The notes under the pieces are model-generated. The model was given only the letters and a program-made list of their open reading frames with translations, was not told the origin of the DNA and did not search any database. Positions 52,401-55,400 of a DNA stretch of 64,000 bases are shown piece by piece (positions within the stretch are counted from its first letter, which is position 1; each line of letters opens with the position of its first letter). Where the stretch lies: assembly GCA_009760855.2 (NCBI GenBank), contig WPIO01000103.1:1382001-1446000 (forward strand), in the 5' to 3' direction. The stretch is from Cristatella mucedo. Its lineage: Eukaryota > Bryozoa > Phylactolaemata > Cristatellidae. The translations under genes were made by a program, and so were the position numbers.

Positions 52401-55400
52401 GGAAAGTGGGGATAAGTAATAAGAGCGCACAAAATGTTGCATGCGTGAAGAATGGGTGCACCGGGTGGCACACACATGCTGTACTTATGAAGTCCCGGCC
52501 TAGCGTTAGGTGCAAGCATTCTGGACGTAGAGGCCCCGGCTTCTAAACATGCCGGCAGTAGGGCTCTCATGCTGGTCAATGAATGCTAATAACTTATTAA
52601 TGCGACCGGCAGAGCTATGTCAGCCTGAAGAGTGCACCAAAAAACGCATCAAAGGGTCGATAATACATTCTCGCCTGTGAATGCGGCCATAAGAACGACC
52701 TTGGTGATGACAAAAGTAGGAAAAAACAAAAGGGCTGAAGTCAGAATGAGGCTTCTTCACTCAACGAGGCAACAGCTCAGCAGGGTAGTGTGTATTTTAA
52801 CACTTAGCTATTTAATATGAAAATGCTGACATGCTAATGCTGTTAAGTAGCAATTGAGTTTATAGATGCGTTATAAAACAAGAACTTTCGGAAGATGCAG
52901 AGAAATATGCCATAATCAGCTGTCCGCCAAAGAAATTGCTGCATGCATGATAAGTCCTGCCGGGTCAGCAGCGGTGAACTCCGACAGATGAGGAGGAACA
53001 CCTAAAACTAAAACTGGTGCTACTGACTGCATGCAGAGCTCGTGTGCCGTTCTTGCTGCTAAGCCTGTCCAGCACGCAACCCCAGCATTGAGCTACCGCA
53101 AGCCAAGACGCCAACAGCAGTCGATAGCCAACGCTTTTTTCCTGGAGAAGCCTGCCGGCCACGAGGGAGGAGTGCCGAGGACTCAAGCGGCGGCGGCGGC
53201 GGCAGCAGCAGCAGCAGCAGCAGCAGCAGCAGCAGCAGCAGCAGCAGCAGCAGCAGCAGCAGCAGCAGCAGCAGCAGCAGCAGCAGCAGCAGCAGCAGCA
53301 GCAGCAGCAGCAGCAGCAGCAGCAGCAGCAGCAGCAGCAGCAGCAGCAGCAGCAGCAGCAGCAGCAGCAGCAGCAGCAGCAGCAGCAGCAGCAGCAGCAG
53401 CAGCAGCAGCAGCAGCAGCAGCAGCAGCAGCAGCAGCAGCAGCAGCAGCAGCAGCAGCAGCAGCAGCAGCAGCAGCAGCAGCAGCAGCAGCAGCAGCAGC
53501 AGCAGCAGCAGCAGCAGCAGCAGCAGCAGCAGCAGCAGCAGCAGCAGCAGCAGCAGCAGCAGCAGCAGCAGCAGCAGCAGCAGCAGCAGCAGCAGCAGCA
53601 GCAGCAGCAGCAGCAGCAGCAGCAGCAGCAGCAGCAGCAGCAGCAGCAGCAGCAGCAGCAGCAGTGGGTGCAGCAGGCATCACGACAGAAGTGGCGAGAT
53701 GGCAACAACAGGCAGCTGCAGTCAGATGCTCCCCTACCTTGGGCTCGGACGAGTGCCGCTTCTCCGAAGACCTGTAAGCGTCCTCGCCGCCGCCGCCACT
53801 GCTGCTGCTGCTTCCCTTGACCGCTGCGCCCTGAAGCTTCTTGTCACCGGCGGCAGCGGCTTTCTGCTGCTGTTGCTGCCCGCCTCCCACGCCGTCTCCC
53901 TTCGACGAGCCGGAGGACGTCTTCGAGTCGCTGTCGGTGCCTCGAAGCTCCTTGCCAGGCGTCGACACACTGCCTTTGCCCATCTTTCCTGACGACGGCT
54001 TCGCCGAGTCGCCACCACCGCTGCCACCGGTCACAGACGTCGACTGGGCCGGCGCGTTCGACAGGCTGCTGGGATTGTCCGTGGCGATCTGAGCAAAAAA
54101 CCGCAACTCGAATAGTGGCAGAGGCAGCGAAAACGGAGCAAACGGTCAGCAGCAGGATGCGGCAGCCGTACCGGCAGCTGTCACATCCTGCTGTGTGACA
54201 CAAAAAGACATAGGTGATAAGAGGACTGCCGAAATAAACGGGCCGACCGTCAAAGATGGCAGAAAATGAAAGGGCAATCGCCCTTGCGGTGGCAAGGAGA
54301 TCAAACGGGCAATCACCTCGACAGTGACTGTTTATCGTGTAGCAGGCACTGCTGCAGATGACGCTGCTAACCAAAATGCTCGGAGCAGAGCGAGTTGGGT
54401 TCAATAAAAAAAAAAGCCAATAAAACAGGAGACCTGCAAGAGCTCACCAATAACTAGAGACGTGGTCAGGTATGCATGTTTCAGTAGCACAAGTTCAAGC
54501 ACACCCTGGGACTCGTTGCTTACTATACCCATCATGGCGTTTTACAAGCTCATACTACCGAACTTATCATTTATCTCTTGGTTATTGCTTCTCTTGCAGC
54601 ATAACTTAAAGTGCCTTGGCAGATTCTCAGGCCACTTTCAGATTCTGGTACATATTTTCTGTGTCGTTTTCTGTGTAGCTTTGTCCCACCGTTGTGGATT
54701 AAGGTCCATTGGTCCTGGCAAGCATACTTTACACTACCCCGATTGGCTTGGGCAGTTCTTCAGCCATTTTTAGATTTTTAAATGTCTGATTTTTGAGGTT
54801 TCGTCTGAAGAAGCCTACACTTTTTCATCAATAAATGGCAGCTCTGTACCCCTGATCCTTTCCTGCAAGACATCACTGATCCTTTCCTGCAAAAAATCAC
54901 TGAATAGGCGATCTTGAGAATCTCAGAAGGCATTGTTGGGACTCATAATAGTAAAACTAGACCCACAGGCGATCATAATAAAAAAACAGCTGTCGTCGGT
55001 TTGCAATACCAGCTCCTGCGATGTCAAAGTCAAGCAAATGCCTTAGGGTGAGACTCTAAATCCACGGTCTTAACTTTTATTAGATATCTGTAACCTAGTT
55101 TTCATGATTTAACTCATATCGATGCTCCGTGTAACTTAAATGAGCAACTTCGCGAGACAGCCGAAATTTCTCCACGTCAGAATACCCTTATTTTGTATAT
55201 TACGAAGTTGAAAAATTAAGCTGAAGGGCCGCTTTAGGCCAAATGCCATGCCAACTGGACTACTTAAGATAGGCGCTCGGTTTACTGGTCAGGAAAAAAA
55301 GTAAATTTCAACTTTTCGGTAACAAGCCTTGATTTCGGTGAGAAATACGAAAATGATTGCCTGAAGCACACTGTGCAACGCACCAGTGGCATAATTGTGG

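Follow-up and report, generated by a model that had tools for sequence, protein, structure and literature searches.

A pure (CTG)154 tract in a predicted ENL/AF9 intron is one of 44 CAG/CTG tracts of at least 99 units in its genome assembly

The closest known counterparts of the CTG tract described in this work are found in human genes. The CTG18.1 repeat of TCF4 (Fuchs endothelial corneal dystrophy) is likewise an intronic CTG repeat, and the CTG repeat of DMPK (myotonic dystrophy type 1, DM1) has the same repeat unit and an expanded range which takes in the length of the present tract. The two differ in position, since the DMPK repeat is located in the 3' UTR, according to an excerpt of PMC2694559, whereas the present tract is placed in an intron. 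GC-rich intronic expansions in people (CTG in TCF4, CCTG in CNBP, GGGGCC in C9orf72) disturb the splicing of the host intron, as stated in parts of PMC8758631 and PMC7988464. Among animal microsatellites, those of the AGC class, as treated in a portion of PMC3152781, share their motif class with the tract. According to that portion, coding sequence in Daphnia pulex and Drosophila has AGC as its dominant repeat motif, and an earlier study is reported to have ranked AGC with the dominant triplets of arthropods; at the scale of the entire genome, AGC is described as not dominant in D. pulex and honeybee.

The window, i.e. the whole stretch of 64,000 nucleotides that was analysed (C4:1382001-1446000, C4 being its contig), carries on the forward strand a CAG tract whose direct count of 154 pure units is in agreement with Tandem Repeats Finder (Table 1). 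The maximal run of period 3 (53202-53664) measures 463 nt and has zero interruptions, so that it consists of the uninterrupted head-to-tail copies of 3 nt which characterise a perfect trinucleotide microsatellite. A (CGG)5 block adjoins the tract, and the sense strand, which is the reverse one, reads (CTG)154(CCG)5.

The predicted host of the tract is an ENL/AF9 (MLLT1/MLLT3) gene. Both domains that define ENL/AF9, the N-terminal YEATS domain and the C-terminal ANC1 homology domain (AHD), were found on the reverse strand, and their presence supports the label. The two YEATS halves are on two exons of the window's contig, on the same strand as the intron and upstream of it; YEATS matches are also present on two other contigs. 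The linker exon is of low complexity (poly-Q, -A, -S and -G), and in the Pfam scan neither this exon nor the one following the intron had a match of its own. From their order and strand we infer that the YEATS exons, the linker exon and the AHD frame form one transcript. The tract starts 73 nt past the donor of the linker exon, the gap being 53665-53737, and the acceptor at the other end of the intron reads TTCAATCTTCAG/GCG, where the next exon opens. Both sides of the intron are in phase 0, as the exon frame ends with EPK before GTA and the next exon begins with AAEK. By these predicted exon limits, the position of the tract as sense-strand CTG within an ENL/AF9 intron is supported.

A sequence-only reading of the same DNA had arrived at this geometry (a gap of 73 nt between the donor and a sense CTG run in an ENL/AF9 intron), with which the splice sites, the YEATS domain and the AHD agree, and its count of 154 pure CAG units on the forward strand was reproduced by both methods. 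It had bounded the tract at 53187..53664; the end is correct, whereas the start takes in one G and the (CGG)5 block, which are not CAG.

Table 1. Features of the tract and of its predicted host gene (window positions unless a contig is named)
Feature	Position	Strand	Basis
(CAG)154; (CTG)154 on the sense strand	53203..53664	+	direct count; Tandem Repeats Finder, 154.3 copies, 100% match
(CGG)5, read as (CCG)5 on the sense strand; adjoins the CTG run on the side away from the donor	53188..53202	+	sequence
Extension of the exon frame into the intron in case of retention: 184 extra codons including 159 consecutive alanines, then stop	53183..53737	-	translation
Predicted ENL/AF9 linker exon, 117 codons, ends SSEPK at AAG/GTAGGG	53738..54088	-	limits by eye from sequence and translation
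Predicted tract-bearing intron, 1766 nt, GT...AG, phase 0	51972..53737	-	donor, acceptor and next-exon frame (sequence only)
Predicted next exon, start AAEKGGVEKRDSSKSSKKSGK; 3' end somewhere inside the given stretch	51123..51971	-	frame and acceptor
Open frame with the AHD at its C-terminal end	48458..49426	-	Pfam PF17793, E 6e-22
YEATS domain, second half	63690..63812	-	domain match
YEATS domain, first half, outside the window	C4:1452151-1452261	-	domain match

As the frame of the linker exon is open down to 53183, the exon could in principle run past 53738 and encode the tract as poly-alanine. This would disregard a consensus-like donor (AAG/GTAGGG) and the phase-matched acceptor at 51971, and the open frame meets a stop immediately past the tract, which would leave the product without the downstream AHD. 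The donor, the acceptor and the AHD together led to the rejection of the coding tract, which we regard as very improbable.

In order to place the tract within its genome, pure CAG/CTG tracts were counted in the assembly (572,011,866 bases, 688 contigs). A pure tract of L units has L-98 placements of (CAG)99 and L-99 placements of (CAG)100, and the difference between the two numbers of placements is therefore the count of tracts of at least 99 units. The assembly holds 2762 placements of (CAG)99 (1146 and 1616 by orientation) and 2718 of (CAG)100 (1125 and 1593), which gives 44 such tracts, divided 21 to 23 between the two orientations; this direct difference supersedes a rough exponential extrapolation which had given about 60 tracts of at least 100 units. 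Distributed over the 44 tracts, the 2718 placements correspond to a mean length of about 161 units, or about 154 without a single tract of 433 units. At the lower length of 20 units, 16082 placements of (CAG)20 are found. The same searches with GAC, the CAG triplet read backwards, had 0 matches at 20 units or more and at 99 and 100 units in the whole assembly. Long tracts are thus not a property of every triplet of CAG composition, and with the backward control at zero at 20 and 100 units on both strands of 572 Mb the window tract is far beyond chance.

Nine of the 44 tracts were read, while the other 35 were only counted. The sample is made up of seven tracts from a search for runs of 99 units or more with a T directly behind them and of two more. 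Their lengths are 433, 168, 154, 138, 133, 131, 125, 114 and 109 units; they are on nine contigs, no two have the same length, and the window tract is the third longest of the nine. The longest (locus L023 on contig C662) is accompanied by two further CAG runs, one of 36 units and one of 8. With 44 tracts of at least 99 units and a mean of about 161, the window tract is ordinary for its genome and is average for its length class, and its candidacy as a length outlier was rejected. The sequence-only reading had taken a pure tract this long to be unusual and had called for a genome-wide count, in which many tracts of equal length would make it ordinary; with 44 long tracts counted, the view that it is unusual is not borne out.

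Assemblers have difficulty with pure tracts, and the length could be inflated; alternatively, the sequenced individual alone may carry an expanded allele. The 44 long tracts, nine of them read on nine contigs at nine lengths, argue for a genome-wide property, and the presence of many long tracts on other contigs lowers the likelihood that this one was singly inflated or that its locus alone expanded. A tract of 463 bp would also be short in comparison with long reads, if the assembly was built from them. We consider an artefact or private allele of this kind improbable.

The flanks of the tracts were compared for signs of a common origin. By eye, the immediate flanks of the nine read tracts are unlike one another. 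Masked blastn was performed on a set of nine tract loci composed of seven of the nine long ones and two shorter tracts, and within this set the flanks of the window tract (about 1.3-1.5 kb) had no match. A dispersed repeat is common to L008, L019 and L024, at varying distances from their tracts, and a 53-nt stretch is common to L021 and L024. The window tract is one of many such dispersed loci, with unrelated flanks as judged from the loci read or compared. As the flanks of the window tract are unshared among the nine loci compared, there is no sign that it arrived with a mobile element, and on this set the tract as part of such an element was rejected. Several tracts have a related triplet as their neighbour, namely TAG at L019 and L028 (the latter a tract of 63 units), AAG at L025 and CGG at the window tract, which is the common appearance of microsatellites grown in place.

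The reading that we favour, with a probability of roughly 0.88, is that the tract is a trinucleotide microsatellite of the AGC class (CAG/CTG) whose size is ordinary in this genome, and that it grew by slippage, is transcribed as CUG, is normally spliced out and has no special function. While the length, purity and position of the tract and the number of its counterparts are observed, its history and fate can be outlined from established microsatellite biology. The tract was probably seeded in GC-rich, simple-triplet sequence beside the (CGG)5 block, and would have grown by replication slippage together with hairpin-assisted expansion. The CUG run would be transcribed as part of the ENL/AF9 pre-mRNA and normally be removed, efficiently, with the intron, and the tract would be without any special function.

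The main competitor of an inert microsatellite is a tract that causes partial retention of the host intron, lowering the amount of full-length ENL/AF9 and yielding some product which ends in poly-alanine and has no AHD. With its length and only 73 nt from the donor, the tract could affect splicing, and the exon frame would stay open through it if the intron were retained (Table 1). In the predicted local fold, shortening the run to five units leaves seven of nine donor-region positions more unpaired than they are beside the full tract, and the remaining two less unpaired. When 72-nt leaders of the same composition were shuffled, however, a fraction of 0.52 was open in that frame, and since about half of the shuffled leaders are open and a CTG run cannot hold a stop, the open frame is weak evidence for retention and none for design. 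The human expansions, TCF4 CTG among them, offer a precedent for retention of the host intron, but carriers without disease also show intron retention (PMC7988464, in the part consulted). Retention is the one testable consequence of the tract and the most worthwhile to examine, even if we think it unlikely to occur. An extension of the idea, in which a genome-wide permissive state lets tens of disease-length tracts be tolerated and the length of the ENL/AF9 tract tunes retention towards a protein with YEATS and poly-alanine but no AHD, is speculative and has a very low probability.

A gain of function at the RNA level, in which CUG154 would sequester muscleblind proteins as in DM1, is suggested by the class and length of the repeat only. 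The same assembly has 43 other such tracts, and the repeat RNA would belong to an intron, which is normally degraded. The length of the tract is by itself no sign of abnormality, given the 44 loci of at least 99 units in the assembly. In flies, as described in an excerpt of PMC3371033, ubiquitous untranslated CUG or CAG repeats (4xrCUG~100 and 4xrCAG~100) lead to tergite defects; lowering of Mbl in this model did not enhance the CUG or the CAG phenotype and partly suppressed the CUG one. Nothing singles out the window tract for a DM1-like effect, which finds no support at this locus and is in our judgement highly unlikely.

The window contains further repeats and genes. A second pure triplet repeat, (CTG)28, is located at 28288-28371 on the forward strand, and perfect GA, TC and TG dinucleotide runs are found at 2196-2238, 4067-4155, 23591-23697, 27080-27144, 37435-37557 and 41795-41881, including a TC run of 107 nt and a TG run of 123 nt. 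Because of these many long perfect dinucleotide runs the window can be called rich in simple repeats generally. Three broken reverse-transcriptase-like stretches, mutually similar and by eye of LINE type, are present at 8296-9740 (forward strand), 17703-18731 (reverse) and 56019-58969 (reverse), the last being flanked by the second YEATS exon on one side and by the ENL/AF9 linker exon on the other. Of three pieces scanned with Pfam, one (8296-8748) had an RVT_1 match and two had no match. Similar frames are also seen beside three other long CAG tracts (L021, L025 and L026). An open frame for a Ras-family GTPase is at 270-1016 on the forward strand (E 4.5e-24). The frame at 42369-42827, also on the forward strand, has a weak GRIP-domain match, below the curated cut-off, and may be part of a golgin-like gene convergent with ENL/AF9. 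Outside the window, locus L001 (G000:C1:30680-33739) carries CTG blocks of 5-22 units split by single CAG triplets in GC-rich surroundings, an array which is possibly coding.

The single locus matters little, and the count of tracts in one 572-Mb assembly may be of more use. If reads confirm the count, the species would be a natural setting for studying the tolerance of long CTG/CAG tracts, and the ENL/AF9 intron, whose tract begins 73 nt beyond a donor, would lend itself well to such tests. In the literature, where titles and the openings of abstracts were looked at, we met no comparable genome-wide count of pure CAG/CTG tracts for other animals.

The longest trinucleotide repeats tabulated in the portion of PMC3152781 used here are of 174 bp in D. 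pulex and 710 bp in Drosophila, as against 463 bp for the window tract and 1299 bp for the longest CAG tract read in this work. The SSR-rich genomes of penaeid shrimps, as presented in part of PMC7878876, resemble the present assembly in that simple repeats are abundant genome-wide, though the genome is a different one. With respect to TCF4 CTG18.1, the length of the window tract is above the thresholds of 40-50 units quoted in an excerpt of PMC7988464; in a study cited in the same excerpt, 2 of 63 controls had at least 50 TCF4 units. While CTG18.1 is polymorphic and associated with disease at one locus, here 44 loci of at least 99 units are present in one assembly.
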